The notes under the pieces were generated by a model, which saw nothing but the letters and a program-made list of their open reading frames with translations, had not been told where the DNA came from and made no database searches. From positions 1-64,000 of the IMG/VR virus record IMGVR_UViG_3300042402_003740: 64,000 nt of DNA; one strand, given 5' to 3'. The translations under genes and the position numbers were made by a program. Origin of the DNA: a virus. Shown here piece by piece: positions 18,525 through 57,814 of the stretch (its first letter is position 1; each line of letters starts with the position of its first letter).

Positions 18525-18962
18525 TTATGATTTATTTCCTGCGGCGGCTGAACCAAAGTAGAAACCGATAATACTCAATAGAATTTGTCTGTTTTCTTGT
18601 GTGAACAGGTATCCATTAACTGTTTGGAATGCCACCTCTGTTGATTCTGGAATCAGACCAAACACCCATTCGGGATTTGTCTTTTCTACTTCTACAACCG
18701 TTGGTATGCCAAAGAATGGCAAGACAAAAGGTGCTGCAATAGTCCCAAACAGAACCATCAGCACTATGAGTTGTCTGACAGTTTTTCCTGCATCAACAGG
18801 TACTCGCTTTACGGCAGCATTTTGATTGTCATTTGTTCGCTTATTAGCAGTCAACAGACGATCAAACGCTTCTTTTTCGGCCTGACGCTTCTCAGCCATG
18901 TGACGGAAGATAAATCCCGTCGCACTTCCACCAATGAGTGTTATCAGTTCGGTTGGTATCAT
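18525..18962 (-). CDS. Putative holin (3-TM, GTA-holin-like)
   Basis: A 145-residue protein with a hydrophobic N-terminus (ELITLIGGSATGFIF), a charged amphipathic region (MAEKRQAEKEAFDRLL), a long membrane segment (QLIVLMVLFGTIAAPFVLPF) and a C-terminal one ending FYFGSAAAGN. This order and the F-x-F-G-S ending resemble the 3-TM holin family of gene-transfer agents and marine phages. It starts on the last base of the FtsZ-like gene stop (TAATG) and is followed by the candidate spanin, forming a lysis pair. The endolysin is not adjacent; a lysozyme-like gene lies at 62.4 kb. Confidence 0.6.
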   Translation of the reverse strand: MIPTELITLIGGSATGFIFRHMAEKRQAEKEAFDRLLTANKRTNDNQNAAVKRVPVDAGKTVRQLIVLMVLFGTIAAPFVLPFFGIPTVVEVEKTNPEWVFGLIPESTEVAFQTVNGYLFTQENRQILLSIIGFYFGSAAAGNKS

Positions 18963-20185
18963 TAGTTTGCCTCCTTGAATGGGTCTTTTGCGTTGAACCC
19001 ATCAAGTTCTTCCTTACGAATATTTGCTGCAAACTGTTCTAGACGATTCTTTGGAATCTTCAGACCGGAGATAAGCGTGTAAAGACGAAGTGTGGGCTTT
19101 TCGTCTTCGTAGATGCCACGGTGCAGAGTTGCACTCGGACATAGTGAAGACAGTGTATCGAATCCATAGGAAAGACTGTCCATCAATCCTGGTGTATTCT
19201 CCATTATTTCCTTGCCACCAACGGCGCAACAAGCAGCATAGGTTGCTTCTGAAATATCTAATTCTGCAAGCAAGGTCTTGTCTACATTAGACTTGATTGC
19301 TCCAGAAATCTTTGTTTCGTGTGCTGGTTCTTTTTTGTCACCATCACTTTTAACAGGATCGAGTTTAGAAACACCCATGACCATTGTTCCACCACAGCGA
19401 AGCACGGTTGCATAGTCTGTTGGGTCGAAAGAGGTATATGGGGAAGCGTGTTTAGAAAGCACATTGAAGATATGGAATAGTCCTGATACAGTATTGTTTA
19501 TAGTTGACCAGAACTCTTTGACTGTAAGATTCTTGTACATCTTTTCAATCTTTGAGTTATCAAGAATGATAAGAGGAGAGATCTCTTTCCGTTCTGCTTG
19601 TCCACCGACTTGCTTCAACACACGATATGCATTGAAGGAAACCTTTGGAGAGGCTGCTTCACCACGGGTGGGAAGAGACATCACAACACCTACACGCTCT
19701 TCTGGTTTGTCATGTCCGATGAACTTCATGTACTTCTTTGCAATGTCGATAAGCACAAGTGAAGATCCGCTACCGCTACCGCCTCCTGCACCAATGCAAA
19801 CCATAATGTGGTCAACTTTTGTTCCATATGTTTTACGCATAAGATCAAAAATCTGCTGCTTGTATTTCATAGCAGCAGATGCACCACGCTCCATGTCTTT
19901 TCCTGCTCCCTCTTCACCGATATCCAAGAGCATTTTCTGTGCAGCAGGAATGTCCAAGCGGTCTAGATCTTGTCTTGAAGTATTTACGGCAATGCACTTC
20001 TTGTAGCCACGGTCATAGAAAGCCTTTGCAAGACGACCTCCACCTTGACCTGAACCAATCCATGCAAACACATGGGAACCACCGCTTTGGTCTTCAACGC
20101 ATTGTTCCGTTGAATCTGGTTCCTTGTAGTCTTCTAACTCAAGATCGGGTATCTCTAGATCTGGTACATCTGGTAACTCATCCAT
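18962..20185 (-). CDS. FtsZ/tubulin-like GTPase
   Basis: A 407-residue protein of the tubulin/FtsZ superfamily. After a very acidic ~35-residue N-terminal tail come the phosphate loop WIGSGQGGGRLAK (~42-54), the ribose/sugar-contact strand CIAVNTSRQDLDRL (~64-77), GEEGAGKDMERG (~90-101), the tubulin signature GAGGGSGSG (~132-140), a guanine-contact segment PLIILDNSKIE (~204-214; compare FtsZ IPNDRLL) and a T7-loop candidate FDPTDYATVLRCGG (~253-266) that keeps the D-x-x-D pair for GTP hydrolysis. Overall it is closer to FtsZ than to the tubulin-like PhuZ of jumbo phages, as far as can be judged by eye. It is coupled to the holin gene downstream. Possible roles are a phage spindle or DNA-positioning filament, or interference with host division. 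Confidence 0.8.
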   Translation of the reverse strand: MDELPDVPDLEIPDLELEDYKEPDSTEQCVEDQSGGSHVFAWIGSGQGGGRLAKAFYDRGYKKCIAVNTSRQDLDRLDIPAAQKMLLDIGEEGAGKDMERGASAAMKYKQQIFDLMRKTYGTKVDHIMVCIGAGGGSGSGSSLVLIDIAKKYMKFIGHDKPEERVGVVMSLPTRGEAASPKVSFNAYRVLKQVGGQAERKEISPLIILDNSKIEKMYKNLTVKEFWSTINNTVSGLFHIFNVLSKHASPYTSFDPTDYATVLRCGGTMVMGVSKLDPVKSDGDKKEPAHETKISGAIKSNVDKTLLAELDISEATYAACCAVGGKEIMENTPGLMDSLSYGFDTLSSLCPSATLHRGIYEDEKPTLRLYTLISGLKIPKNRLEQFAANIRKEELDGFNAKDPFKEAN

Positions 20186-22686: not shown

Positions 22687-25365
22687 TCACCAAGTTGCGT
22701 CGTTACCCTTATCTAGTAGAATCTTTTTGGTCTTAACATCTATGACTTGTAATCCAGCAGAAGTTGGACGAAGTTCAACAAATCTTCCACTAGACTTCAC
22801 AACAAATACTTCATCCCCCTGATACAACCTCTTCAAGACAACCATTTCGTATTCATCTCTCTTGCCCCATTTCTTTCCGTATATGGTGATAGGGGTCTTC
22901 ATGGGCTTACGATCAAAGATATCAAGGATTTCCTCTGCATTCTTTGTGTTTGCAGCCATAGCCTTTTCGGTCTTCTTCTCGGCTCCCTTTGCTGGAGTCT
23001 TCATTATGTTGCCAAAGCGGTCAGTCTTGCGCTTCTTCATGGGGTCGGCTGCACGGTCGTAGAATCCAGGAACCTCATCCTCTGGTACTTCTTCCTCATG
23101 CCAACCGTCTTCATCGTTCCACTTGAGGGTAACAGTCTTTTCTTCTTTGTTTCTGTCTACAATTTGTGCATCACGGGGAATTGTGGCTTCATCCAAGTCA
23201 AGGGACTCTTTCATGCCCTTCAGTTGCTCTTCGGCATCGGCAAGATTGTCCTGCCAGAACTGTATATCGTCTTCAGCCTTTTTTATGCTCTCTTTGCTCA
23301 AGCCAGCCTTTTTCAACATCTTCAGTTTCATCGTAAGAGACTTTATCTCTTCCTTTGAACCCTTTATGGCGGCTTTGAGTTCTGCACTCGAATGGACATA
23401 AGAGCCTTCGTCCAGTTCAACGGACTCCTTTACAAACTTTTTACCACGGCTGCTCTTGATGAATTTAGAGAACCAGGAGTATACATCTCCTCTTGGTGGA
23501 TATTCGTATTCCTTAAATAATTTCCTTCCGTGCAATTCTCCAGAAAGAGATCCATAACGATCTTCGTATTTAAGATATCCTACTTTCTTGCCATTCTTTA
23601 GTATAGGATACACACTTATGGTTTGTGTGCCTACTGTGCTGATTCGATCAAGTCCTTGTCTTTCGATATATTCGTGTCGTATTTCTGGCAAAGACAATTC
23701 ATATCTTGCAGTACCTTCATTCAGTTCAACGGACTCTTTCAAATCTCCATGAAAGGAGTGAAATGACACAAGAAGTTCCGAGGCTCCCTGATGGTGTTTT
23801 TTGTCACCATCAAAAAGTGGATTCACATTATTTTTAACTAAGATTGCTTGGATGCCTTTGATGGTTTGTTGATCTCTGATAGATGAACCGTATTCATTAT
23901 ACGCCTTGAGTTCTTTCCCAAACTTCTTCTTGAGTTCGGCTACAACATTCTTTGGAAGACTCTCTATCCAATCTTCGATAGATGCTTTAACTGCACCTTC
24001 ATTAATTGTTGCTTCATCCAAGTCTCCGTGGAAAGTATGGAAAGACATGATGATTGCCGAAGTTCCCTCGGCATGGTTCTTGTCTCCAAGGAGAGGCTTC
24101 ACCCTGTTGCGAACAAGAATTTGGCGAATCTTTTCACGGGTTGGATCGTCAATAACAATTGATCCACCCATGTCAGCCGCCTTCAATTTCTTTCCAAACT
24201 TGTTCTTTATCTCGGCTATGACTTTCTTTGGAAGATCGTAGAGCCAATCTTCTAGTGCTCCCTTCATTCCACCTTCGTTGAGTGCATCAACACCTTCCGC
24301 TAGACCGATCCCCATTGCTTTCTTGTAATGCCTTTCTGCCTCACTCATCAGGTGTCCAGTATCTTTAACAAACTTGTGGTATTGGGACTTGGGATTGAAC
24401 GACAACGCAAAGACATATTCAAGTGATGTCTCTGCCTGATTCTGATCGAACGGCAACTTCTTATTCTTTAGTATCTTGAAAAAATCATTGTAATCATACT
24501 TTGATGGTATGAACTGGGGTTCATCTTTTGCTTTGGAAAAGTAGGCTTCGCTGATAGGTTCACCCAAGCGGGTCTTTGTCCTGATGCCGTGACGCTTGTT
24601 GTACTGTTTCCATGCCACGCCATAGAGATAGGAAGCCCAATCATCACCGTAACGATCCTTGAAACTAGCCTTGGCTTTCTTCACTAGACGCTCGGACTTC
24701 TCGTCAGGAGGAGTTACTTCGTTTAGGAGTTCTTCGTTCACTTTGGCTTTCTTGGATTTCTTCTCTGGTTTCATTGGTCTTTCCAGTCCTTTTCTTATTG
24801 CATCAAATAGTTCTCTTGCTCCAGAGAACCCTGACGGCATACCCTTTTTGAATAGTTTGAAATCATTCTCGGCGGCGGCGGCACGGAGTTTTGATGCACT
24901 CATGCCCTCTACGCCCTCGGCTTCGGGATCACGCTTTCCTGCACTCACAACCTTGAAGTCCTCAAAGTTCAATCCTGTCTCGGGATCATCGCTGCCCAAA
25001 TACTGCTTGACAGTTTTTGTTATCTCTGGAACACGATCATCGCCTACAACTATATGAACGGTGGTGTATTTTTCTTTCTGAAGTTGATACAGGACACGCA
25101 TAAAGGTGTTTGTATCATTGTCTCCCATGACAATGTTTGCCTTTGGGAACATCTTTCGCATAAACTTGATCTTGTCACTGTACTGTAGTGGATTCTTTAT
25201 CGCTGCTTTTGGACGATTACCGTCGAATGATTGTGAGGCATAAATGCGGTGTTCTGCCCCCATCTTTTGGGCATGAGCGATCACGGCATTGATAAGTTTT
25301 TCATGCCCTATGGTTGGGGGCTGAAAGCGTCCAAATGTAATTACAACTGCTCTTTTTTTAGCCAT
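22687..25365 (-). CDS. 892-residue multi-domain head protein with N-terminal nucleotidyltransferase
   Basis: Residues 1-190 form a cytidylyltransferase-like (NMN adenylyltransferase type) domain: FGRFQPPTIGHEKL (T-x-G-H site, ~11-24) and GMSASKLRAA (~154-163, the S-x-T/S-K-x-R motif). A series of modules follows. Residues ~365-449 and ~457-540 are a tandem duplication (each with xEDW..LPKxVxAEx and SFHxFHGDL). Residues ~551-645 are a module repeated in the 324-residue protein at 56 kb. A coiled coil (~660-715) and a KOW/SH3-like end follow. L/I-x-E sites occur between modules at E216, E273, E364, E451/456, E550, E653 and E726, so I read it as a polyprotein cut by the prohead protease. Each module may be an internal head protein. 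SD GAGGT; own promoter. Confidence 0.7.
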   Translation of the reverse strand: MAKKRAVVITFGRFQPPTIGHEKLINAVIAHAQKMGAEHRIYASQSFDGNRPKAAIKNPLQYSDKIKFMRKMFPKANIVMGDNDTNTFMRVLYQLQKEKYTTVHIVVGDDRVPEITKTVKQYLGSDDPETGLNFEDFKVVSAGKRDPEAEGVEGMSASKLRAAAAENDFKLFKKGMPSGFSGARELFDAIRKGLERPMKPEKKSKKAKVNEELLNEVTPPDEKSERLVKKAKASFKDRYGDDWASYLYGVAWKQYNKRHGIRTKTRLGEPISEAYFSKAKDEPQFIPSKYDYNDFFKILKNKKLPFDQNQAETSLEYVFALSFNPKSQYHKFVKDTGHLMSEAERHYKKAMGIGLAEGVDALNEGGMKGALEDWLYDLPKKVIAEIKNKFGKKLKAADMGGSIVIDDPTREKIRQILVRNRVKPLLGDKNHAEGTSAIIMSFHTFHGDLDEATINEGAVKASIEDWIESLPKNVVAELKKKFGKELKAYNEYGSSIRDQQTIKGIQAILVKNNVNPLFDGDKKHHQGASELLVSFHSFHGDLKESVELNEGTARYELSLPEIRHEYIERQGLDRISTVGTQTISVYPILKNGKKVGYLKYEDRYGSLSGELHGRKLFKEYEYPPRGDVYSWFSKFIKSSRGKKFVKESVELDEGSYVHSSAELKAAIKGSKEEIKSLTMKLKMLKKAGLSKESIKKAEDDIQFWQDNLADAEEQLKGMKESLDLDEATIPRDAQIVDRNKEEKTVTLKWNDEDGWHEEEVPEDEVPGFYDRAADPMKKRKTDRFGNIMKTPAKGAEKKTEKAMAANTKNAEEILDIFDRKPMKTPITIYGKKWGKRDEYEMVVLKRLYQGDEVFVVKSSGRFVELRPTSAGLQVIDVKTKKILLDKGNDATW

Positions 25366-25491: not shown

Positions 25492-26745
25492 CTATACTTT
25501 CCAGTTTTTCGGCAAATTGAAATTCTTTCTTGAGAAATCTAGTCGATCTACGAGTTTATATGCACGGTTGTTCATTCGGTTCACCACCACGAACCCTTCG
25601 GGGGGTGACGCTGTATATGTTCCGTTTTCTTGTGTAAATGAATCTAAACGCATCTTGGTCCGGCGGAGCCTGTCTATAACCAAAAGTTTGGCTTGTGAAA
25701 TGAGGAGGTGCAAGGCAAAGAGGCTGTCGTATTTGTTAGAATTTGACTCTATAGAGTCTAGCAAGGCTTTGGCGGCGGCAGTTCTTGCTTGTCTTGCATC
25801 ATCCTTTTTCACACCAACAGCGGTCTTTTCTATCTTTTCTTTCATATAGGAAAGAAATCCGCTACTGGAGCCTTGTGCAACTCCCTGTCGCACATTCGAA
25901 TTTATGTATATCATTAGATCGTCCACAAGACCCTTACTTTTCTGTAAAGAGTCCAAGAATTTTGCAGATTTCGCTCCTGTTCTTTCTATTTTTGCAAGTA
26001 GTATCTGTATTTCTTTCTTTTCTAAGGGATTCGCAGGGAGAGAGCAGGAACCTGTACCATCAGATCCCCCCTGTAGATTTGCATCAATAATCCACGCAGA
26101 AGCATTAGACTTCAAGTATGATATGTCAGGAGCAAAAGAAGGCGATAGGCTTGCAATCGTATCACCAGTGTACTTTGTATGAAAAACAACACCCATTTTT
26201 GCCTTTGCTATCTCTTTACCGATAGAGGAGTCGGCAGGAATGGCATAGGTAAGGGTGTTTGGGCGAAATGTAAGGTATTTTACTCCGTGTATCTCTTCGG
26301 TTTTGAGATCCTCATTTGTGAAGAGCATATCTCCCTGAAGAATTCCACGAATTCCAGAGTTTTTTAAATTTTTCAGAGCAATCTTTAGTTTTTCATTTAG
26401 ACCAGGAACAGGGTGGTTTTGGTCTATGTCTTTTGGTGTATAATTTATCTTTGGAGTTTTATTGAAAAGAGACTTTGTGGCAACAAAAAACTTACCATTT
26501 TCAGGATTTATTCCAACAATAATGGCAGGAGCACCGTCAAATTTTGTTGTAACACAAAAAGAAGCCTCTGCTTCATCCGAAAGTTCCAATACTTGTCGTA
26601 AGTAATCTGTCGCTGTCTTTATGCCAGAGGAACCCTGTAAGAGTATTGTGTCTTCGATGTGGGTAAGATGGGTAACACCACCAGAAGCCTTGTCTTCGGC
26701 TTCCTGTAATAGCAGCGTTTCCCCAAATTTAGTAAATGATAGCAT
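25492..26745 (-). CDS. DUF6267-like protein, nucleotidyltransferase/ligase fold
   Basis: A 417-residue protein resembling a family of T4-like phages annotated as DUF6267. It has THIEDTILLQGSSG near residue 27, then VTTKFDGAPAIIVGINPENG (~66-85), the K-x-D-G site of the covalent nucleotidyltransferase (DNA/RNA ligase, capping enzyme) superfamily, then FFVATKSLFNK and GIRGILQGDMLFTNEDL (~132-148). The lysine may be adenylated, but I do not know any substrate. The N-terminus MLSFTKFGETLLLQEAEDKA has a leader-like start and an L-Q-E-A site, suggesting a packaged head protein. A TAAATA-type late promoter lies ~20 bases upstream of the ATG. Confidence 0.7.
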   Translation of the reverse strand: MLSFTKFGETLLLQEAEDKASGGVTHLTHIEDTILLQGSSGIKTATDYLRQVLELSDEAEASFCVTTKFDGAPAIIVGINPENGKFFVATKSLFNKTPKINYTPKDIDQNHPVPGLNEKLKIALKNLKNSGIRGILQGDMLFTNEDLKTEEIHGVKYLTFRPNTLTYAIPADSSIGKEIAKAKMGVVFHTKYTGDTIASLSPSFAPDISYLKSNASAWIIDANLQGGSDGTGSCSLPANPLEKKEIQILLAKIERTGAKSAKFLDSLQKSKGLVDDLMIYINSNVRQGVAQGSSSGFLSYMKEKIEKTAVGVKKDDARQARTAAAKALLDSIESNSNKYDSLFALHLLISQAKLLVIDRLRRTKMRLDSFTQENGTYTASPPEGFVVVNRMNNRAYKLVDRLDFSRKNFNLPKNWKV

Positions 26746-27174: not shown

Positions 27175-30100
27175 ATGAGTAATTCTCTAAAAGTAAATTT
27201 GCAAGCATCACAAGGATTTAGTCCTTTTCCTAGATCTGTTCTAACTTCTGAATTTGCTCTATTTAGTGACAAATTTGGTGTAACTGAAATGGTTGATCTC
27301 ATCCAAGATCGAGCGATAGTTGCTTATCAATTTGACTCTCTTGACCAGAGTGGAGTTCCTGGATACCGTGGAATTAATTTTGGTCCTGGTATTGATCCAG
27401 GATTTCGTTGGTTATCATTTATAACAGGATATAGTGGAGGATTTACAGCCAATAATAATTGGGAATACCGATCAGCAGCAGCAGCAGCAGGAGTAACACC
27501 AGGAAGTCCAAATTGGAATACCGATTTCGGATGGGATCTTTGGCAAAAGGAAACAAGCATCAGCGAATGGTATAAGTGGGGAATTCGCAAATTTCACATA
27601 CACCAACCTTTCGGAAAAGTCACAAGAGGTGTATACGGTCAAACATCAGGCAGTAATCAGGCAACAATTAATGCACTTATTTCTGCTGGCAACACGCTAA
27701 CACCAGAAGCATCTGTTTATCAGATAGATTCATACCAATTGTGTCGTGATGGGTTTATTCATCCTGAAACAGGACACACTGGTAATATTCCTATGCCTTG
27801 GCTTACAAACGATGTTGTTGATGGAATAACACAAGGATTTGTTCCTCTTTTCAAGGCTCTTATAACAGGAACAGCAGGAGATCTTTCACAAGACACATGG
27901 ACACGGCTCACAGGAATTGGGGGTGCTTCTGCCTGGTACAATCCTGAAGATCCTATTGAGATTATAGCATACAATGGTGGTTTGAACTATGAGACTTATG
28001 AGAGGTGGAAAGCATACTTTGAGTCAGATCCTGAAACCGCTAGACGAAGACTTCGTGAATCATACGAACCTTTCGCAAGAGCAGGAATGCGTCTTGCAAT
28101 AGATGCACTTGTTGTTTCTCCTGGACCAGTTGTTGGTGAAAATGACTTGATGAGCGATGAGTACAAGTTTGTTTTCAGAGGAAGTGATAGTGATGACTGG
28201 AAACTAGTCAATAAACTAACAGGGGAAGAGGAACCAATACCACCAAGTGGGCTTGAGTTTCCAACTCCAATTTGGCGCACGACAGATTTCGCAAATAAAA
28301 AGATCTATGCACCTCCACTTGACTATAATGGTAATCCAATAGGAAAAGCAAGAGGTGAGACACTTGGTGGACAATTAGACCAAGAGTGGTGGTCGTTCTT
28401 CTCTGGACACATTGTTCCTACTTTTGGACAACATCGCATATATTCTGAAGCAATTCCTGATACTTCTATCATCAATGGTGTAGGAAAACCAAATCCATAC
28501 ATTGGTTTTAATACTATGGGATTTTCTGAATTTATCCGTGCAGGATTTGGAGGAAGAACAAGCGATACCCCATCAACTCCATATCCAACAGATCGTACTC
28601 GTTTCCATTATCTACGAGAACTTGGAGAAGTAGAAGTCGTTCACTCCCTTTCATTTGGTGAAGTTCCTTGGGTTGGTATAAGCGGTCCTAATGGGTTTAA
28701 ACCGGGATACTATTGGTTCTTGGAGAGATTTGGAAAAACAGAATCAACATCTGGTTCTGGTCTTCCTCCTCTAGGAGCAGGAGAAGTGTATCTTCGGACA
28801 ACTGTCACTCCAGGCTATGGAGAACAGATGTATATGGGTTATGTTGTTGCAGACCATTTACAAAAGTACTATACACATAATAATGATCCTACAAAAGTAA
28901 ACGAAAATAAAACCAAACACATGGTTATGTTTGCAGCACCAACAAAGAGAAAATTACCAGATGACATACTTGAAGCAGAAAGAGTCAAATATGGAGTGAC
29001 TCTTGACTTTAACCGCAGATTTCCAACAATAACTGAATATGCTAATTATATTGGTGCACTGAAGAACACCACACAGTCTCCTGATCCTGCAAATCCAAAC
29101 TATGGAATACCATCAAGAATTATAGACATAGAACCTATTGCTAAAGAATTTGCAGCAGAAGTAAGAGGTATGGAAACGGTTGATGGAATCGGAGGATCTA
29201 TACTGCTCTATGTTCAGTCATGGGACGCCTTTGCTGGTACCAAACTTTTTGGAATATCTGATGGACAGTTCTATGTTCCACAAGAAGATGTGGACATGGA
29301 AGAGACAAAGTTTAGAGATTGGATGGATACTGTTATCGCTTCTTGGATAGAGAGGTATGGAACCTATCCAAAGCATATAATATGGAATCTCACAGAATAT
29401 GGATTCTCTGGAAAAACTGGACCTCTGTATAACCGAGAGCCTATTGGATTTGAGATGGAGCGATACTTCTTTGATCCAGCAACACTTCCTTTTATTGCAT
29501 CAGATGAAGGTCGTGGAGAGATAAACTCCTATAGCACCAGAGGACTTCCCTACTATGGTTTGGATGGTCCTGGAATAACATGGGATTCCAGTCAAAATTC
29601 CGAGCGTTTCTACAGCAGAGGATATGATATTGCAAGGCTTGAAACAGCGGGAAAAGATCCTGTCGTACCAGCAAATCCACTCTATACAAGATCAAAAGAC
29701 ATTATTCTTGATATGATTGCAAAACTAAAGAGGTGGAGAACGGACCGTGGGATTCCCGCAAAGGTTGGAGTGTACCATGTACCTTTCATGCCTCGCTATC
29801 CATATAATGTGTATAAAGTGGAAGGAGTAAAGGAGAATTCACAAGCAGTCGTCTATGCTGCTGGTGGGTGGAATGATCTTGTCTGGCCAAAGCAGAGTAC
29901 AGTACATCCTTATGGTGTTGGTGGGTGGTATACGCCACAAGAAACAAGCGAACTAAAGAAAGTAGTCAATCTAGAATTTAGAAAAAGATGGGAACCGATT
30001 GTTAAAGAGTCTGAAGTGCTTTTTCCTGAATTGTACAATGACAGTTGCAGAGAGAACATATTTGAAGATGGTAATGTTGAGGGTTGGATAGAGACTCACA

Positions 30101-33100
30101 GAAAAGTAGTAGATCTTGCAAATGAATTCAAGACAATTCCTGCATGGTCAACAGAAGATCCAAATAAGGACAGCAACACAGAGGCTCCAGCAGGAGTGAC
30201 TGTCGATATTATACCTCTTACTGCCTATTCTGTTGTAAGACCTAACTGCGGTAGACTAGGAGAAGACGATCCTGTTGTAAAGAAAAACGGATCTCTCTAT
30301 GCACACGAAAACCAAGAGTATACTCTTACAGATTGGCTCCGTGACGAATATCTAAGACCAAAATTCAGAAGACCAGCAAAGGTTCAGGGACTCTCAATGT
30401 GGAGAGGGTTTGAATATAATGCAACAAATGCACTGTACACATCTTCTTATACTGGAAAAGAAGAAGACCGTGAATGGGTATTGAAATATATTCAGGCAGA
30501 AGACGGAAAGGGAGTAACAATTGACTGGAATAATCCTGTTGATGTGGACATAAAGTTTAGACGATATCTCCAAATAATCAATGGGCTAACCAGAAGATAT
30601 CTACACCGCTTTGACAGAGGAATTCCTCGTCGTGATATCCACCGACCATACTACCATGCTCCTTTTGCAGCAGGATGGAATCCTGGTATTTCCGCAGATG
30701 GATCTATGGCTAAACGATATCCAGAATCCATAGGTGGAATGCCAATACCTGATGTTGTTCCTCTCCTTTGGGTAGGCTATGGTCCATCAGGTCAGACTTT
30801 TAGAAATGCATCAAATACTGGTGGTGTCTCTAATGAGATACTTGCAGATGTTCGTGAAAGAGCAAGTCTTATACCACCAGGAAAAAGAGTCATTATGCCT
30901 TGGTATTGGCAAATCGAATCTCCTGCTGGTCAGCGTCCAATGATTGACTACTATGAGAATACAACAGATGGAATGGTTTATGGTGGTACAAAATACCGAG
31001 CACACGAAACACCAGGTGGCGTTACATTCCTCTCTCCTTGGGCTTACAATAATACAAGAGATGCAAAGAGTTCTATAACTGCTTTTCTACAACAGTGTGG
31101 TCAAACTGGCATATCTTTTGATGCGATTGGTTCTGATTTTGAGAATTGGGGTTGGCTAGGACTTTCTTCCGTTAATCAATCTTTTGATGGTCCTTGGGGT
31201 CCAACAGGAGAACCAGCAGCACAAAAAACGGTGACAATTGATGGCATTGATCGTAGTGTTGTTGTTCCTTGGAATGAATTGTACTCTTACTTGCAAGAAC
31301 CAGATAATCGAATAGCATCAACAATTGTAAAAGATTCAAGATTTGCAGGACTGACAAACTACACAACAGGTCTGTCAATGGGTGGTGCTATAGAGAAAGT
31401 CTATAATCAAATTAGACCATTTATGTCTACACTTGTTAATGGGTATGGTTATTCTAATCCTGGTAATGAAGATAATGGTTTGACTGCTAGTCAGATAATG
31501 ACATATTTTATCGTGGAAGGACCAACAGGAATTTCAGCAGCAACTGGTCCAGCATCAGTTGATGCTTATTATAATCCTGCGCTTCAAAACTGGCAAGCAG
31601 CAACAAGAGACAGAGGTCGTGAAATAGGAAATCCTTGGAGGCCACCATATACAAACAGCACATATCCTTTGGCTGCTGGTAAATCTGTCTCAATAAAACT
31701 TGCCTGGTTTGCATGGCAAAGAGCACTAGAATCTTTAGTACACGAAGACCACACACAGAGAAAGTGGGTTGACACTCTTCGTGGTAGTACAAGTAAAGAG
31801 ATGAGAAATGTGGAATTTGCAGAATATGATGCATTCCCTCTATCAGTTGGGGAAGGTGTATTCATTAGAGATCCGTATACGCATCCATTCTTGGCTTTAG
31901 GTGAGCAAGAGAACAGCGAGTACATTAACCCAAGTCCAGAACAGTATGGATCTATTTTAGCAGACAGTATAAAGACGGCGGTTTACTATACAAATCCAAC
32001 AACAGATGAACAAAAGTATATTATTACTATTTGTGATGCAGGGCAAAATCCACCAGCAGGAACTGTAAGATTCGCCCCATCTTTTGATATTACAGCAGCC
32101 AGAAGTTGGATTTCATTGCTCATGGAAGTACAGTTGATGAGAGGAATTCTTCGTACTGATCCTAGTGCGTGGTTGAACTATACTCCTTGGGTAAATACTC
32201 CTTGGGATAATCCTGATTACAATGGATTCTATCATACAATAGATCCTGTGAACACACCAGACATAGAAAGACGAACCTATTCGATTCAGTACTTTAGAGA
32301 ATTGGTTTTCCATGCTCTACTCCACGGAGCAAAGTGGTTCCATCTTTTCAATGACATTCCCGGTAATGGTGGACTTGGCCTCTCTGCAAGATATCAAAAC
32401 TTCTTGCAGGGAGTAACACTCATGCAGGGTATTTTCAATGAATGGAATTCTCTTACAAACTATAACCGTGTTCGTCCAGCATCGAATCCAACAGGAAACT
32501 ACAATGCTCTTGTTGAAAGGGTGAATCTTTCAGACGCAGGAGCAAATCACGAAGGAGCAACAGGAACACTTATAAGCGGTGCTCGTGTTCTGTCCGCAGA
32601 TTCTTTCGGACTGACAAGTAGTGTGCCATTCGGAGCAAATCCAAATGAAACCTACATCTGGAGAATATCTGTTCCTCCACAAGGAGTCGGTTGTACATAT
32701 GATCGTGTTGATATTCCAGGATTTGGATCAGCAACACAGGATCTTCCTCTAACTGTTTATGTGCCAGCAAATGAAACAGGATTCTGGATCAAGAGAACAG
32801 GAAATCCATATAAACCCCAATACCGTTGGAGAAAACCAACAACCGATGGAATGGGCACAGTACTGAAGAACAGGGACTCTAGTGCCATAGGTTTCCCCTC
32901 AACAAATCCTAACAGTGTGTTTACTGGTGGTGATAGTGATGCAACAATTGGAAGCGGTGCTAACTCTGATATTCGTGTCATTGCTGCATGGAAGAGCGAT
33001 CCAATACCCTTTGATAAGAGTACAGAAACAACAGTAACTATATGTGCCTACCATCCATCGGGTATACAGCGTGTAGAGGCTTCTCTTAATGGAGGATTAA

Positions 33101-35784
33101 CCGCATCAATTGTAGGAAACTCTCCTATAAATGATCGGTATCAGGAATTCACATTTGGTATTCCCCAAAATCTTCCGCAAACAACAGGGTTCCCAACAGG
33201 AACTCTCCATGAGATCCGTGCAAAGATATTCCCTGTTGAAGGAAAGCCCCGTATACTTGGAGGTCAACCGACAGACGCTTCGGTCTACTATACAGCGGCA
33301 ACATCTCTTATGAGAGTCGCTCCAACAAAAGAACAGGCAAATGAAACTTCATATTTCTTGTGCAATGAAAATCCACATGAAGTATCAGTTCTTAATAATT
33401 CTTGGGTAGTGAATATGGGAACTTCTCAGTATAGTGATTTGAGAAATGCAATACTTTTTGAATTAGGAAATCGCACAGGTTCCGATGTGTTAACAGAAGG
33501 TTCTGGAGGCAATAATTCCAATGGAAACTGGACTCCTTTCAACAGAAAGTTTGTAAAGATAAAAGTAAAAAATCAAACGAACTCAAATTTAAATATCCTT
33601 GGAGATCCTGGAACAGTTTCTGTTGGTGGATTTCTCTTTGTTGTGGATAGAAACGGTGCTCCAACTGGTTTATTTGATCCAACATGGAATCTGCTTGCAT
33701 CTTCATTTGATTTCTCGGGTAAGGCTCTAGTAATAGAGAGGGACTCTGGATCATCAACAACTCCAACAATGAAGGCGAGCACAACAGGAAACACAAATCC
33801 TCCTCCTCGTCCAGCAGGATTTTCCACAGCAGTTCCTGGTGCAAATCAACCGTTTAGCAATCCCAATTCTGTATATGCCATACCTCTAGGATTGTTTAAT
33901 CCTGGAAGTTTCGATGCATATTGCACATTTCAAAATAGAATATACAGATTAAATAAGAGCCTTGCGGATAGGAGTGGTTCATTTGAATTTGGTGGAGCAG
34001 GATTCACTCCTAATGAATTGTCTGCTCCAAGCGGGACAGACACAAGTAATTCCACATGGATATTTGAATCAGGTACAGGAGATTACGAAACAGCAGTTGG
34101 AACATCCAGAAGTGTTAATTGTCTAGGAGTAGGAAGAATTAAGTTCAAGAATGTTATAGTAGACCGTGGATCAGTATTGGAATTCTCTGGAAATAACAGG
34201 CTTCAATTCGATGGTGTAACTTTTACCTCATCACTACAGCCTCCAACAGAATCCAGAGTTATTGCAACAACACATATGGCTTCATTCACAGGATGTAACA
34301 TTGATGCTGATAATCCCACACGACATGGATTCAATGGAGCCAGAAGAGTATACGGTTGCAATGCGGCAAATATCTACACTGGAGCATTTATTGATAATCT
34401 CATGGTGCAGTCTTCTAGTGCAACAGGAGCACAACAAAAAGACAACAAGTCTGCTAATCCAATACTAAAGAGTAATTTCTCTCTCAAGAATGCAATCTAT
34501 AGTGATATCACAATTTCTGGATCTTCAGGGGAAAAACTACAAGAAGGTGTCTTGATAGGAACAGGTGGTGGGATAATATCTGGTGTACAGGGTGCTTGTG
34601 CAGACCATGAGGGATTGGTGTTCCGAAACATCTCTCTTGATTATGGGGCAATAAATGTTAGTCTTGATAAAAAGGGAATTCTTATAAACGGAAATGCCCA
34701 TCAAGTTTTCCTTGATGGATTGAGTTTCTCTACAGAATCGGTAAATATTGATAACTCCTACAAAGTGGTTGCCGATGCTCTGCGTACAGGTACTCCTCCT
34801 ATTAGTGGTTTTGGAGCAAAACCACAAAGAGTCTCTAGTATAGGAGGCACAAGAACTGCCGTGATCTTTGATGATCCTTCTATTCTGCTAAGACCGATTA
34901 TATTCGGACCAGAAGGCTCAACATTCTCTTCACGAAATTTTGCTGTTGGGGTCAATTACAACACTAATTTTGGAATAACCATGAGTTCTGTTCAAGAGAG
35001 TGTTCCGAATATTTCTGAAGCAAGAGCATATATCAGAGGAATACCACAAGTTACTGGAACAGGAGTTATTTCTAACAATAATTTTTCACTCTATATCTCC
35101 GGAATGGAGAGCAATGCTGCTAAAATTGGAGGAGTTGTTGGTTGGACTGCACCGTTTATCCAATCAACACTTTCTAACGGGACTGTTCTTGTAAATGTGA
35201 GTAGTGGACTAAATCCTGGAAATGTAATCACTGTTGGAGTAACTCTAAGCACATTCTATACACAGAGGTACATTAGTGCAGGACTAACAATTGAACCTGT
35301 ATCAGGAGCAACATTCCATGTCATGCCATCAGTATTTGATTCTACTGGCGTTTGGAGTGTGAGTAATGGAAATATTCCTATATCGCATTGGTTGAAAGTA
35401 GGAAATAATGGTGTTTCGTGGATTACAAATCCAACTACAACTGCCTCAATAAGACTAAAAATACGATCTCCTTTTTCTACAACGCTTACTGGAGATATCG
35501 GAAATCTAGTTGTGGGTCCGATACCAACTAGTAATACTTTGTTTATATTAGATTGGAATAGTCCAGGAAAAACAGGAGCGATTGTTGTTGGAGGAGAGAC
35601 ATACGGTCTTGGTACTGCTGCTGCCGCTCAAGAGAATGCAACAACCATAGCAAAAATACCAATACTCTGGACAACAGGACCGTCAGCAGGACAACCAATA
35701 TGGCCTGGTTCCACGGCAAATTTCCCTGATTTTAGCCGTGGATCTTGGAAAATCATCTATCCACAAGGTAGTCCTGTAGGATAA
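27175..35784 (+). CDS. Giant (2869-residue) fibre/adhesin protein
   Basis: The largest gene in the window, with AAGGAAA before ATG 27175. The first ~1900 residues contain repeated W/Y/P-rich segments reminiscent of TIM-barrel glycoside hydrolases, e.g. WGIRKFHIHQPFGKV (~140), MRLAIDALVVSPGPVV (~303), HIIWNLTEYGFSGKTG (~735) and ISFDAIGSDFENWGWLG (~1312-1328, with a D/E pair). A beta-sandwich-like part follows near residue 1950 (IQRVEASLNGGLTASIVG), then a beta-helix-like stretch near 2330 (GSVLEFSGNNRLQFDG). Such architecture suggests a long fibre or an enzyme-bearing spike that degrades host glycans. I cannot name a family or prove catalysis. It has a gene of its own orientation flanked by minus-strand tRNA operons. 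Codon use is AT-rich with many AGA codons. Confidence 0.75.
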   Translation: MSNSLKVNLQASQGFSPFPRSVLTSEFALFSDKFGVTEMVDLIQDRAIVAYQFDSLDQSGVPGYRGINFGPGIDPGFRWLSFITGYSGGFTANNNWEYRSAAAAAGVTPGSPNWNTDFGWDLWQKETSISEWYKWGIRKFHIHQPFGKVTRGVYGQTSGSNQATINALISAGNTLTPEASVYQIDSYQLCRDGFIHPETGHTGNIPMPWLTNDVVDGITQGFVPLFKALITGTAGDLSQDTWTRLTGIGGASAWYNPEDPIEIIAYNGGLNYETYERWKAYFESDPETARRRLRESYEPFARAGMRLAIDALVVSPGPVVGENDLMSDEYKFVFRGSDSDDWKLVNKLTGEEEPIPPSGLEFPTPIWRTTDFANKKIYAPPLDYNGNPIGKARGETLGGQLDQEWWSFFSGHIVPTFGQHRIYSEAIPDTSIINGVGKPNPYIGFNTMGFSEFIRAGFGGRTSDTPSTPYPTDRTRFHYLRELGEVEVVHSLSFGEVPWVGISGPNGFKPGYYWFLERFGKTESTSGSGLPPLGAGEVYLRTTVTPGYGEQMYMGYVVADHLQKYYTHNNDPTKVNENKTKHMVMFAAPTKRKLPDDILEAERVKYGVTLDFNRRFPTITEYANYIGALKNTTQSPDPANPNYGIPSRIIDIEPIAKEFAAEVRGMETVDGIGGSILLYVQSWDAFAGTKLFGISDGQFYVPQEDVDMEETKFRDWMDTVIASWIERYGTYPKHIIWNLTEYGFSGKTGPLYNREPIGFEMERYFFDPATLPFIASDEGRGEINSYSTRGLPYYGLDGPGITWDSSQNSERFYSRGYDIARLETAGKDPVVPANPLYTRSKDIILDMIAKLKRWRTDRGIPAKVGVYHVPFMPRYPYNVYKVEGVKENSQAVVYAAGGWNDLVWPKQSTVHPYGVGGWYTPQETSELKKVVNLEFRKRWEPIVKESEVLFPELYNDSCRENIFEDGNVEGWIETHRKVVDLANEFKTIPAWSTEDPNKDSNTEAPAGVTVDIIPLTAYSVVRPNCGRLGEDDPVVKKNGSLYAHENQEYTLTDWLRDEYLRPKFRRPAKVQGLSMWRGFEYNATNALYTSSYTGKEEDREWVLKYIQAEDGKGVTIDWNNPVDVDIKFRRYLQIINGLTRRYLHRFDRGIPRRDIHRPYYHAPFAAGWNPGISADGSMAKRYPESIGGMPIPDVVPLLWVGYGPSGQTFRNASNTGGVSNEILADVRERASLIPPGKRVIMPWYWQIESPAGQRPMIDYYENTTDGMVYGGTKYRAHETPGGVTFLSPWAYNNTRDAKSSITAFLQQCGQTGISFDAIGSDFENWGWLGLSSVNQSFDGPWGPTGEPAAQKTVTIDGIDRSVVVPWNELYSYLQEPDNRIASTIVKDSRFAGLTNYTTGLSMGGAIEKVYNQIRPFMSTLVNGYGYSNPGNEDNGLTASQIMTYFIVEGPTGISAATGPASVDAYYNPALQNWQAATRDRGREIGNPWRPPYTNSTYPLAAGKSVSIKLAWFAWQRALESLVHEDHTQRKWVDTLRGSTSKEMRNVEFAEYDAFPLSVGEGVFIRDPYTHPFLALGEQENSEYINPSPEQYGSILADSIKTAVYYTNPTTDEQKYIITICDAGQNPPAGTVRFAPSFDITAARSWISLLMEVQLMRGILRTDPSAWLNYTPWVNTPWDNPDYNGFYHTIDPVNTPDIERRTYSIQYFRELVFHALLHGAKWFHLFNDIPGNGGLGLSARYQNFLQGVTLMQGIFNEWNSLTNYNRVRPASNPTGNYNALVERVNLSDAGANHEGATGTLISGARVLSADSFGLTSSVPFGANPNETYIWRISVPPQGVGCTYDRVDIPGFGSATQDLPLTVYVPANETGFWIKRTGNPYKPQYRWRKPTTDGMGTVLKNRDSSAIGFPSTNPNSVFTGGDSDATIGSGANSDIRVIAAWKSDPIPFDKSTETTVTICAYHPSGIQRVEASLNGGLTASIVGNSPINDRYQEFTFGIPQNLPQTTGFPTGTLHEIRAKIFPVEGKPRILGGQPTDASVYYTAATSLMRVAPTKEQANETSYFLCNENPHEVSVLNNSWVVNMGTSQYSDLRNAILFELGNRTGSDVLTEGSGGNNSNGNWTPFNRKFVKIKVKNQTNSNLNILGDPGTVSVGGFLFVVDRNGAPTGLFDPTWNLLASSFDFSGKALVIERDSGSSTTPTMKASTTGNTNPPPRPAGFSTAVPGANQPFSNPNSVYAIPLGLFNPGSFDAYCTFQNRIYRLNKSLADRSGSFEFGGAGFTPNELSAPSGTDTSNSTWIFESGTGDYETAVGTSRSVNCLGVGRIKFKNVIVDRGSVLEFSGNNRLQFDGVTFTSSLQPPTESRVIATTHMASFTGCNIDADNPTRHGFNGARRVYGCNAANIYTGAFIDNLMVQSSSATGAQQKDNKSANPILKSNFSLKNAIYSDITISGSSGEKLQEGVLIGTGGGIISGVQGACADHEGLVFRNISLDYGAINVSLDKKGILINGNAHQVFLDGLSFSTESVNIDNSYKVVADALRTGTPPISGFGAKPQRVSSIGGTRTAVIFDDPSILLRPIIFGPEGSTFSSRNFAVGVNYNTNFGITMSSVQESVPNISEARAYIRGIPQVTGTGVISNNNFSLYISGMESNAAKIGGVVGWTAPFIQSTLSNGTVLVNVSSGLNPGNVITVGVTLSTFYTQRYISAGLTIEPVSGATFHVMPSVFDSTGVWSVSNGNIPISHWLKVGNNGVSWITNPTTTASIRLKIRSPFSTTLTGDIGNLVVGPIPTSNTLFILDWNSPGKTGAIVVGGETYGLGTAAAAQENATTIAKIPILWTTGPSAGQPIWPGSTANFPDFSRGSWKIIYPQGSPVG

Positions 35785-51166: not shown

Positions 51167-52792
51167 TCATCCATTTGGATTTCCAAGCATTTGCTTTAGG
51201 TGTTTCTTTCCACCTATTGCCCGAACATATTGTCCGTTGCCTTTCCACTCTATTTCTTTTCCACGAAGTACTCTACGAACAATAGACTCATCGTCTACGA
51301 CTGGCGCACCACGGGATATAAGTATGTCGAGTATTTTTCCGCTTGCTTCGCCATAACTCCCCTGTGTCTTGAGAATGTCTACGGCTTTCTTCAGCACCTG
51401 TCGCTTGGCTTCGGCTCCACCATCGGAACCAATTGTTGTCATCTTCTTGCCGAAAAGTGTGGTCTTTGAGAGTATAGCCGCATCCACATCATCGGGTTCG
51501 TCTGTGTCTATGACATCGGTGATATTGTTGTCCGCAGGAACAGAGTCGGCATTGGGAAAATCAGGATGACCACCGACAGGAGCATAGGCGGCATTGACGA
51601 TATCAAAGATGTCTCGCTGAACATCAGTGTTCTTACGAACCTCTGCGGTTGCCAGAGATTTCCACTGGTCTTTATTTCGCACAACACCACGCCCTGCCTC
51701 TGCAATGAAAGTCTTGAATGAAACGATGCTCTCGCCTATGACATCATAGATGCGGTAGCCCGGATACTTGCGCTTTAGTTCTGCAAATATTCTGTCAAGT
51801 CCACTACTAGAGAATTTTGCCCCGTCTTCGCTTGTGGCACTAATGACCTTGCGCTGGTGGTCAATTCTTCCCTGCACAACAGGAGTAACAGAGCGTTCAA
51901 TCTTCAGCAACTCTGGAAAGACATCCTCATGGGTATCACGAACAGGGTCTTTTGGACTGCGTATTGTTACACGGGTCATGCCTTTTGATGGCTTTATTTC
52001 TGATGAAGCAATCCACAGTTCAGGAATCTTGCCCCCTGTTGATACTCCCCATACCTTTTGACGGATACGCTCCATCTCCTGCTCTTGGTCTTTTTCATAT
52101 GGTGAAACGGAGTGTCCGTAGTCAAGATATGCACCCGCAGTATCAACCATGTCTCCAACAATATCAGGGTGCATTTTCAATACATCACGCACCACTTGTT
52201 CTGTTTCCCGTTTTGTCTTCTTTACTGTATCCCTAGTGGATTTCTTGCGGGCTTCGCTCTCACGACTCCATCCAAGCGCATCGGTAATAATATCCTTGTG
52301 ATCGAATGCAAGGCGTGGAAGACGCTTCACAGAAATCCACTTTGCATCAACAGCATCATCCTGTCCACGCACACGCTGACCCATCTCTGCGGGAAGAGTG
52401 ATGGTGTATGCATACGAGATTGACCATGCTGTTTTCGTATCACGGGGATCTCGACCGCCTCCCTTGTATATTCCAACCGAACGCAATTTCGAGCGCATCT
52501 CTGCTGGAATCTTCAACCCTGTCTCTTCCTCTAGTTCACGGAGTGCAGCATCGGCAATGGATTCTGTCTGTCCTGCCTTCCACTCTCCTCCTGCCTTTGC
52601 GGTGGTGTTTACGAATCCACCTGGTATTGCCCACTTTCCGCCTTCGGTCTTGCCAGGTTTACGCTTGATGAGCAGTACCTCAAGTCCTCCATCTTTTGCA
52701 GGACGGAATACCACAAGATCTACCGTTGGATTTGCTCCTGTATAGCGGTAGCCCTCTTTGGCTTCGGTGATGAAGTGTCTAAAGTCTATCAT
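51167..52792 (-). CDS. Nudix hydrolase fused to a second leader-cargo unit
   Basis: A 541-residue protein. Start ATG 52792 (ATGA overlap with the gene upstream) gives leader MIDFRHFITEAKEG. Residues ~20-170 are a Nudix hydrolase with WAIPGGFVN and the box core ESIADAALRELEEETGLKI; substrates might be nucleoside-diphosphate derivatives such as ADP-ribose or NAD(H). A second part follows (~170-350). At ~356-367 VSFKTFIAEAGRG repeats the leader motif inside the chain, and the last 174 residues are homologous to the 185-residue protein next door. So it is a fusion of two leader-plus-cargo units, likely cut at I-A-E/A. Confidence 0.75.
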   Translation of the reverse strand: MIDFRHFITEAKEGYRYTGANPTVDLVVFRPAKDGGLEVLLIKRKPGKTEGGKWAIPGGFVNTTAKAGGEWKAGQTESIADAALRELEEETGLKIPAEMRSKLRSVGIYKGGGRDPRDTKTAWSISYAYTITLPAEMGQRVRGQDDAVDAKWISVKRLPRLAFDHKDIITDALGWSRESEARKKSTRDTVKKTKRETEQVVRDVLKMHPDIVGDMVDTAGAYLDYGHSVSPYEKDQEQEMERIRQKVWGVSTGGKIPELWIASSEIKPSKGMTRVTIRSPKDPVRDTHEDVFPELLKIERSVTPVVQGRIDHQRKVISATSEDGAKFSSSGLDRIFAELKRKYPGYRIYDVIGESIVSFKTFIAEAGRGVVRNKDQWKSLATAEVRKNTDVQRDIFDIVNAAYAPVGGHPDFPNADSVPADNNITDVIDTDEPDDVDAAILSKTTLFGKKMTTIGSDGGAEAKRQVLKKAVDILKTQGSYGEASGKILDILISRGAPVVDDESIVRRVLRGKEIEWKGNGQYVRAIGGKKHLKQMLGNPNG

Positions 52793-53346
52793 AGTGGGTT
52801 TCCTACCATCATCTTTGTCATCCGTTTTCCACCAGAGAAGGTTCGGGTATACCAGCCATCGCCTTCCCATCCATCCATCTTGCCGTGCCATTCGAACTCT
52901 ACCTTTGGGTCACTCTTGACGATCTTCTCTACACGCTTTGGATCGTTGATAGGCTTTACTCCCATGCCCATGAGTATCTGTGCGGGTCTTCCTGATATTT
53001 CGGTATAGTTCCCACGAACAGAGAGTATATCCTTTACCCGCTTCATCATCTGACGCTTCGCTTCCTGCGAACCGTCTGTTCCCATGCCGTGTATAATTCT
53101 ACCTTTACCCCTTTGCTGTGTGAGTATGACAGCATCAATGGCAGAATCATCATCGGTATCTATGACATCAACATCATCGGTTCCCACAGGATCAGAAGAG
53201 GTAAACTGCCTATGTCCCGTAGGAAACTGTGAGTATACAGACTGTAGAATCTCTCCAATCTGCTTGGCAACATCGGTGTTTCCCTTTACCTCGTTGTTCG
53301 AAAGGGTAGACCATTTTCCCTTGATGTAGCCTTTAAAACTCTTCAT
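52789..53346 (-). CDS. 185-residue head protein, paralogue of the Nudix fusion C-terminus
   Basis: MKSFKGYIKGKWSTLSNNEV, then DVDVIDTDDDSAIDAVIL, GMGTDGSQEAKRQMMKRVKDIL and a W-rich end (WHGKMDGWEGDGWYTRTF). The same order occurs in the last 174 residues of the neighbour (VIDTDEPDDVDAAIL, GSDGGAEAKRQVLKKAVDIL, GKEIEWKGNGQYVR). Leader M-K-S-F-K-x-Y-I is present, but without the usual Glu. Function unknown. Confidence 0.65.
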   Translation of the reverse strand: MKSFKGYIKGKWSTLSNNEVKGNTDVAKQIGEILQSVYSQFPTGHRQFTSSDPVGTDDVDVIDTDDDSAIDAVILTQQRGKGRIIHGMGTDGSQEAKRQMMKRVKDILSVRGNYTEISGRPAQILMGMGVKPINDPKRVEKIVKSDPKVEFEWHGKMDGWEGDGWYTRTFSGGKRMTKMMVGNPL

Positions 53347-55973: not shown

Positions 55974-56948
55974 TCATTTTACTCCGTATTGCTTGTCTAT
56001 TGATGCCCATTCACCCTTGCAGAAGTCTACGACTGCCTGTATGTAGGCGGTAATCTCGTTCGGGGTGATCTTGCCCATAGAGGGGTTGAAGCCGCTGCCT
56101 TTGCCCAGGCGACCCACACGCTCCATCTTGCCGATGCTCTTCTTGAAAGCCCTGGCAATGGCATCAACACGGGCAGGATCGAATTGCTCAGAAGTGCCGT
56201 CGTTCCTGCCGTAGTACTGGTTTGACCCGTTCTGTAGACCCGAGAGCACGGACATGACCATCTCTAGGCGGCTCATTGCCATGTCGCCGCTCTTCCAGTC
56301 TTTCAAGACCTCTTGTGCATAGACAAGCCACTCCTTGCGGTTCCTGAAACTCTCTGGCATCATGCGAAAGTGCTTCTGTGCCATTGTCTCGGGCTTGCCT
56401 GGTTTCTTCTCGTTTCCCCCAGCCTCGTCCAGTTCGACCGATTCTCCTACAAACTTCTTGCCCCGACCGCTCTTGAGGAATCCGTGTAGCCATGCCTGTG
56501 GATCTTTGCTGCCTGGATAGGTCTGTGGCAGTGGTTTACCGTGCAGTTCTCCGGTGATGCCCCCAAAGTAGTCTTCGTATTCCATAAAACCCACCTTTTT
56601 GCCACCCTTCAGGATGTCATAGTGGGTTGTGGACTGTGTGCCGTCCTCTGTTTTTTTCTTTTCCACCTTGGTTTTCTTTAGAGAATACTCCCCGACACCT
56701 TCGTGCAACCCAAGGGATTCCTTCACCACCTGTATCCCCTTGTAACGGCTCCGCACCAATTCTGCACCTGTAAGAACATCCACAAGATCCTCATAGTGGT
56801 AGTCTGTTGCAACAGCCTCGCTTGAATAGGGTCCCGCTACCTTCATCTTGCCACCAGACTTGTACACGGCATAGTACCCTTCAGGGTCAACCTTGCCTAT
56901 TCCTCTGGCGGCTTCGTCTAATCTTCTAATATCCTTGAATCGCTTCAT
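55974..56948 (-). CDS. 324-residue leader head protein with module shared with the polyprotein
   Basis: Leader MKRFKDIRRLDEAARG ends in an L-D-E/A site; a second, SLGLHEG, follows at ~90. Residues ~95-180 (YDILKGGKKVGFMEYEDYFG, GITGELHGKPLPQTY, SGRGKKFVGESVELDEAGG) repeat the module at ~551-653 of the 892-residue protein. A helical domain follows to the end. It overlaps the next upstream gene by four bases. Predicted products are two or three small head peptides. Confidence 0.65.
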   Translation of the reverse strand: MKRFKDIRRLDEAARGIGKVDPEGYYAVYKSGGKMKVAGPYSSEAVATDYHYEDLVDVLTGAELVRSRYKGIQVVKESLGLHEGVGEYSLKKTKVEKKKTEDGTQSTTHYDILKGGKKVGFMEYEDYFGGITGELHGKPLPQTYPGSKDPQAWLHGFLKSGRGKKFVGESVELDEAGGNEKKPGKPETMAQKHFRMMPESFRNRKEWLVYAQEVLKDWKSGDMAMSRLEMVMSVLSGLQNGSNQYYGRNDGTSEQFDPARVDAIARAFKKSIGKMERVGRLGKGSGFNPSMGKITPNEITAYIQAVVDFCKGEWASIDKQYGVK

Positions 56949-57814
56949 CTCTGCTTCTCCTCTAAATATTGGCTGTTGTAATCTTCGAATTTACGCAGTA
57001 CCGCCTCTCTGCCGTCAAAAACCTGTAGTTTTTGCTCTGGTGTAAGCAGCCGCCAGGCACCTGGTGACATTAGTGTTTCCCTACCATCGGTTGTTTTTTC
57101 TGCTAGTGGAACATAGCAGCGGCACTGTATTGGGGTCTTCTCTAATCTTACAATTTCAGACTCTGCGGGGTTTCCAAAGTGGACAAGATTAAGGCTTTCG
57201 TCCGGGGATATCTTGTACTCTAGAACAAAGTGTATGCGTTGCTGTTTCATCTGGTCAGACCACCAACTGTCTGTGACCCCTGTAAAGTCGCCTGTTGCAA
57301 ATCCTAGTGCCACTCTCTGTTCTGTCGTCCATGACTGTGCAACCGACCGGGCCTCGTAGCGTAGGGTTCCCTCTGCACACTGTAGTGGTCTTTTGCCCCT
57401 GTACAGGGTTGTGATTCTTTCAAATTTGAATGCATTGGCAAATCTCTTCACTCCAAACCCTTCGCCACGGTACACATTCCCGCTGTATCGTAGCCACGAT
57501 CCAGTCTTTCCACACCCCTGTATCATTCTCTTTATACGAAGAACAAGATCTTCAGGGGTGTAGTCCCGTTGAGCCTTGAATCCCATCATCCACTTGTTCA
57601 TGGTGTCTGCAAGCCCTGCAATCTCTTCGTTCTTTGCCTCTTTTGCTGCCCTCTCTATCCATTGCCAGCCTTTGCCTCTAAAATGGTCAATAGGAGAACC
57701 CTGAAACAGAGGAGGATTTGACCCGCCCAAGAGATGACACAACCCACGGGAGAAATCTATCTCTCCTCCACTCTTTGACTCTAGTATCTCTATGAATTGG
57801 CGGTAGCGTTTCAT
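56945..57814 (-). CDS. Alt-like ADP-ribosyltransferase head protein (second)
   Basis: A 289-residue protein with leader MKRYRQFIEILESKSGGE (I-L-E site). Triad: SGNVYRGEGFGVKRF (R116), RSVAQSWTTEQRVALGFA (S161-W-T) and GNPAESEIVRLEKT (E218-x-E220). Its order and spacing match the 468-residue protein at 53.3 kb, so two transferases of different size sit in one operon. NAD+ and an arginine or other host residue are the inferred substrates. Confidence 0.72.
   Translation of the reverse strand: MKRYRQFIEILESKSGGEIDFSRGLCHLLGGSNPPLFQGSPIDHFRGKGWQWIERAAKEAKNEEIAGLADTMNKWMMGFKAQRDYTPEDLVLRIKRMIQGCGKTGSWLRYSGNVYRGEGFGVKRFANAFKFERITTLYRGKRPLQCAEGTLRYEARSVAQSWTTEQRVALGFATGDFTGVTDSWWSDQMKQQRIHFVLEYKISPDESLNLVHFGNPAESEIVRLEKTPIQCRCYVPLAEKTTDGRETLMSPGAWRLLTPEQKLQVFDGREAVLRKFEDYNSQYLEEKQR

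Follow-up and report, generated by a model that had tools for sequence, protein, structure and literature searches.

The question raised by this locus is whether one long open reading frame (ORF) of a marine T4-like phage encodes a single protein or a precursor that is cut into several head proteins. The ORF was analyzed in a window of 64,000 nucleotides (positions 1 to 64,000 of IMG/VR record IMGVR_UViG_3300042402_003740), and the source record is a 92-kb fragment, which is incomplete. In T4, the cleavage consensus of the prohead protease gp21 is L/I-x-E, and a first-pass annotation had proposed that sites of this type divide the ORF product into modules. Our analysis makes it likely that the ORF encodes a modular polyprotein, the precursor of cargo carried inside the virion head, with predicted cuts at the joints between modules. 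The ORF, its modules (M1-M8) and other relevant genes of the window are listed in Table 1.

Table 1. Coordinates in the window of the ORF, its modules and other relevant genes; a slash marks a predicted cut.
Feature	Coordinates	Strand	Description
Candidate head polyprotein, modular ORF	22687..25365	(-)	892 aa; ATG start
M1, residues 1-216	24718..25365	(-)	NMNAT/cytidylyltransferase-like; GRFQPPTIGH and MSASKLR motifs; ends LNE/V
M2, residues 217-273	24547..24717	(-)	FK.RYG..W module; ends ISE/A
M3, residues 274-364	24274..24546	(-)	LAE/G inside at 357; ends LNE/G
M4, residues 365-456	23998..24273	(-)	Tandem copy 1; LDE/A at 451, INE/G at 456
M5, residues 457-550	23716..23997	(-)	Tandem copy 2, 51% identical to M4; ends ESVELNE/G
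M6, residues 551-653	23407..23715	(-)	Ends ESVELDE/G; absent from strain L006; paralogue in P0002
M7, residues 654-726	23188..23406	(-)	Predicted long helices; ends ESLDLDE/A; insertion joint in L006
M8, residues 727-892	22690..23187	(-)	N-terminal part beta-rich, plus C-terminal domain
DUF6267 neighbor	25492..26745	(-)	N-terminus MLSFTKFGETLLLQE/A
Nudix protein	51167..52792	(-)	N-terminal MIDFRHFITE/A; second, internal SFKTFIAE/A
Stand-alone paralogue of the Nudix protein's C-terminal module	52789..53346	(-)	185 aa; starts MKSFKGYI
P0002	55974..56948	(-)	324 aa; starts MKRFKDIRRLDE/A, then LHE/G, M6 paralogue, ESVELDE/A
Protein starting MKRYRQFIEILE/S	56945..57814	(-)	YRG, SWTT and ESE residues

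The sites reported in the first-pass annotation were all present in the ORF product (216 LNE/V, 273 ISE/A, 364 LNE/G, 451 LDE/A, 456 INE/G, 550 LNE/G, 653 LDE/G and 726 LDE/A, each with the predicted cut after E), and two more were recognized, 357 LAE/G and 544 LKE/S. The nine that conform to [LI]xE[GAV] all lie past residue 215, in the tail behind the NMN-adenylyltransferase-like domain. By composition-preserving shuffles, 2.05 such sites would be expected over the full length (p=0.0008) and 1.70 over residues 201-892 (p=0.0002, the lowest value this test can return), against the nine observed in each case; for the narrower pattern [LI][DN]E[GAV], seven were observed and 0.2 expected (p=0.0002). 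The density of [LI]xE[GAS] was about 13 per 1000 residues in the tail and 3.0 per 1000 genome-wide. Eight of the nine site glutamates were in predicted coil compared to 41% of all tail glutamates, in a model whose confidence is mostly low in the tail. The ORF has L/I-x-E and a small residue at its predicted processing points, as in substrates of T4-type gp21 (S77) proteases. It also has a feature that characterizes a polyprotein, namely separate modules with sites for a single protease at their boundaries, as the strain and breakpoint comparisons below show.

The proposed domain content was borne out. M1 matched PF01467 above cut-off and phrog_3041 (9e-52), with matches also to phrog_395 and phrog_455, and the best Foldseek matches of its model were NadD structures (E 4e-5), in agreement with the NMN adenylyltransferase-like domain noted earlier. 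Its TIGH (residues 18-21) and SASKLR (residues 156-161) motifs, mostly near-invariant among relatives, are of the HxGH and SxSxxR types and, together with a Rossmann fold, place M1 in the NMNAT/cytidylyltransferase-like superfamily with a putative activity of that kind. The tandem duplication noted before corresponds to M4 and M5, and the coiled coil to M7, in which residues 660-721 were predicted as two long helices. No nameable fold was obtained for M2-M8 from the AlphaFold model, where the tail has low confidence (whole-model mean pLDDT, 51.8), and M2-M8 and P0002 gave zero matches among 50,697 phage records.

Comparison of strains showed that the joints are the points at which the ORF changes. 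Near-identical versions of the ORF are present on two IMG/VR contigs, L005 and L006, both incomplete, and L006 is 97-98% identical in DNA to this record over nearly all of its 59.8 kb. M6 is absent in L006, with boundaries exactly at ESVELNE/G and ESVELDE/G, and the same contig carries a new module of about 96 residues at the 726 joint, where LDE/A is replaced by LEE/V. In L005, the 550 joint is changed from LNE/G to LDE/G, so the site is retained. The joint DNA at residues 550 and 653 is near-identical (GAGTCCGTTGAACTG at both), and because of this the loss of M6 in L006 looks like joint-to-joint recombination. The M6 paralogue in P0002, encoded in the same genome, is 42-50% identical to M6 and likewise ends in ESVELDE/A. 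Near-identical DNA repeats at the joints and strain indels that fall at them also fit a different reading, in which the tail is a hypervariable recombination mosaic of a cytoplasmic early protein and the joints are DNA-level seams without proteolysis. Three results argue against that reading and make it quite improbable: homologues of the N-terminal domain occur in virions, one joint peptide recurs across very divergent ORFs, and the S77 protease is encoded by nearly all long genomes that carry the joint; each is described below.

An exact scan with the back-translated joint KExVELDE[GA] retrieved at least 119 IMG/VR viral stretches, whereas a permuted pattern of equal degeneracy gave 4 viral matches. 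Cellular genomes gave 16 matches in 257 Gb. The matches listed contained 118 motif ORFs, in which the number of sites reached 12, and splitting these ORFs at the sites yielded 80 multi-member module clusters (single-linkage and therefore approximate) in 88 distinct orders; each of the five commonest clusters occurred in 16-31 orders. When sites were masked in non-redundant ORFs, 51% of homology breakpoints were within 10 residues of a site compared to 18-22% with random masks. Three ORFs among the matches listed, retrieved by the joint alone, open with an M1-type cytidylyltransferase domain. The motif ORFs had no convincing match in Pfam. The joint peptide is common to very divergent ORFs and is conserved past the minimal LxE, as K-E-S-V-E-L-D-E. 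Glutamate and leucine are common residues, and about two sites would be expected in the ORF by chance, which would suit E-rich, low-complexity sequence or an annotation artefact as the source of the pattern. The shuffles and the permuted-pattern control refute a chance or low-complexity origin of the sites, and with the exact module indels they leave this explanation with almost no probability.

Among the matches listed, 11 carriers of the motif were 86 kb or longer, and 10 of these encoded the S77 prohead protease (gp21), which is predicted to act at the joints; gp23 was nearby in those long carriers examined for it. In two carriers, the gene order was gp21, a multi-site ORF in the gp22 position, and gp23. 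Neither an S77 protease nor gp23 was found on the 92-kb fragment that carries the ORF or on L006, and no S77 protease was found on L005, all three being incomplete contigs. We infer that both genes are present in this phage because it has T4-like replication genes.

Published virion proteomes contain homologues of M1. The S-SM1 (PMC3037559) and S-SCSM1 (PMC9602691) homologues were found in virions by mass spectrometry, and S-CREM2 gp154 was detected in virions in a study whose authors themselves note a CsCl co-purification caveat (PMC10665884). T4 internal proteins are targeted by N-terminal propeptides of 10-19 residues, which gp21 removes (PMC9026906). S-CREM2 gp154, which has 286 residues and lacks the modular tail, starts with MKNFSSFLTE/A, and other non-structural S-CREM2 virion proteins start similarly. 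Melnitz is a cultured OM43 phage of the Kyanoviridae that has gp21; its 650-residue homologue (_18) starts with MKKFSEIIE/A, and the adjoining genes include others with similar starts. M1 homologues in related viral contigs were 44-55% identical, and most relatives have a short tail behind this domain. The Melnitz and S-CREM2 homologues thus begin with a capsid-targeting sequence; the 892-residue ORF does not, and upstream of it there was neither an in-frame start codon nor a targeting sequence.

Targeting-type starts were also evaluated more broadly. The motif ORFs as a group were not enriched in N-terminal targeting sequences (6 of 65 vs. 41 of 493), and a first N-terminal regular expression gave no significant difference when applied to the virion proteins of S-CREM2 (p=0.23). 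The T4-form expression [FLY]xx[FYI][LIM]xE matched 5 of 18 virion proteins vs. 1 of 60 others (p=0.002), a post hoc result in that the expression was written after the S-CREM2 sequences had been viewed and the test spans 78 of about 220 genes. S-CREM2 gp12 (L253:4705-7314), detected in virions and annotated as a Cas9-like nuclease, has FASFMAE/A near its N-terminus, and this peptide is likely a capsid-targeting sequence. S-CREM2 gp160 has LSE/A and ISE/G sites. In the genome studied here, targeting-type starts were present at 25492-26745, 49189-50232, 51167-52792, 55974-56948 and G000:86656-87243.

In phrog_455 (764 residues), the first half matches the DUF6267 neighbor of the ORF and the second half matches M1; because phrog_455 spans both, the two appear as one protein in other phages. 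In the DUF6267 protein, the sequences KFDGAP and ILQGDMLF recall ligase/nucleotidyltransferase motifs. The Nudix protein is a relative of bifunctional NMNAT/Nudix enzymes, specifically of their Nudix half. Its internal SFKTFIAE/A precedes a C-terminal module that is 36% identical to the product of the next gene, and the Nudix protein is a visible fusion of two putative cargo genes in which a second predicted targeting and cleavage signal was retained. Together, M1 and the Nudix protein suggest NAD-related cargo; a link of such cargo to NAD-depleting defenses is speculation. By its YRG, SWTT and ESE residues, the protein encoded at 56945-57814 may, as judged by eye, be a T4 Alt-like ADP-ribosyltransferase, but it had no supporting HMM match, no match among PDB sequences and an unusable model.

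Other features of the window were a phage tmRNA (36500-36827 (-); tag ANTVRLAA) that adjoins four tRNAs, with a tmRNA present in Melnitz too; a tubulin/FtsZ-family protein (18962-20185 (-); PF00091, 2.8e-11) that matches PhuZ weakly, in a T4-like phage; a 2869-residue ORF (27175-35784 (+)) that had no PHROG or Pfam match and varies between strains; and an S-adenosylmethionine decarboxylase-like gene (54753-55142 (-); phrog_3125).

The modules may be head proteins even if some of the L-x-E joints are not cut during maturation. In that case, the ORF product could act in the virion or core as a single flexible protein of several domains that is trimmed at few sites at most, with each joint serving as a linker or core-binding tag. 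The conservation of the joint, K-E-S-V-E-L-D-E, exceeds what the protease should need, and SPN3US mostly loses N-terminal propeptides by several cuts, with 42 of its head proteins uncut (PMC10052503). Yet the part of the joint that never varies is the gp21 consensus followed by G, A or S, and the sites survive changes in their flanks (LNE/G to LDE/G, and LDE/A to LEE/V). The full second capsid-targeting sequence inside the Nudix chain would serve a purpose chiefly in a chain that is cut at that point. With this evidence, we regard the uncut or little-cut chain as unlikely, and cleavage at the joints as the preferred reading.

Under a model of cleavage at the joints, a single chain with the NMNAT-like enzyme and seven small modules would be made and would enter the prohead, where a gp21-type (S77) protease would cut each joint after its L/I-x-E. 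Enzyme and modules would be freed into the head, would remain there as cargo, and probably would be ejected along with the DNA. The joints would double as recombination seams that allow in-frame addition, loss and shuffling of modules. A candidate function of the cargo is, for example, to top up NAD early in infection. Many cleavages in T4 and SPN3US yield propeptides that exit the head, and because such propeptides often depart, the modules, once released, might not stay in it. Of the polyprotein proposed at the outset, one part is well supported, namely that its units are strung together with prohead-protease-type sites between them, on the grounds of module gain and loss at the joints, paralogy, a joint motif that recurs across phages and the presence of the protease in nearly all long carriers. 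The word peptides is too modest for the predicted products, the units being modules of 57-166 residues plus an enzyme domain and not small propeptides.

In its mode of action the ORF probably resembles the T4 internal-head-protein system, of which it would be a modular polyprotein version seen repeatedly among marine T4-like phages. T4 IPI-IPIII and Alt have capsid-targeting sequences and are processed by gp21 (PMC9026906). They share the L/I-x-E consensus with the ORF product and are virion cargo, as is predicted for it, and [FY]xxF[IL]xE/A targeting peptides like theirs are found here in neighboring, Melnitz and S-CREM2 genes. Each T4 internal protein, however, has a gene of its own and is cut near the N-terminus, to which Alt adds a C-terminal cut, whereas the ORF combines at least seven modules, every joint bearing a site, and is without an N-terminal targeting peptide. 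The T4 scaffold/core proteins gp22 and gp67 are also single precursors cut by gp21, and some small fragments of them stay in the head (PMC9026906), as predicted for the ORF product. These two proteins are mostly degraded, in contrast to the distinct modules of the ORF, which recur in other orders and are joined to an enzyme domain. Cyanophage cytidylyltransferase/NMNAT-like proteins that are associated with virions (T4-GC190; S-SM1, S-SCSM1 and S-CREM2 gp154) have a homologous N-terminal domain but mostly a short tail, and M2-M8 are unmatched in the phage records searched. In phiKZ and SPN3US, prohead-protease substrates receive several cuts per protein after x-x-E, as predicted for the ORF, but those cuts strip long propeptides, and an exchangeable set of mature products was not reported there (PMC10052503). 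No precedent for a phage polyprotein cut by a prohead protease was found in the open-access papers searched, a body of work that leaves out most subscription journals.

There is perhaps an even chance that marine T4-like phages share a general cargo system in which polyproteins of interchangeable modules, recombined at K-E-x-V-E-L-D-E/G or /A joints and cut in the head, supply a strain-specific injected set. If the polyprotein reading is true, tailed phages would load many small head proteins from one gene by means of genuine polyproteins, and recombination at the protease joints would give each strain a fresh mix of cargo. This would account for many of the long, unannotated, fast-changing ORFs of marine T4-like phages, and the joint would be a sequence rule for finding virion cargo in metagenomes. 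The NMNAT-like proteins that recur in cyanophage virions would gain a defined loading route.
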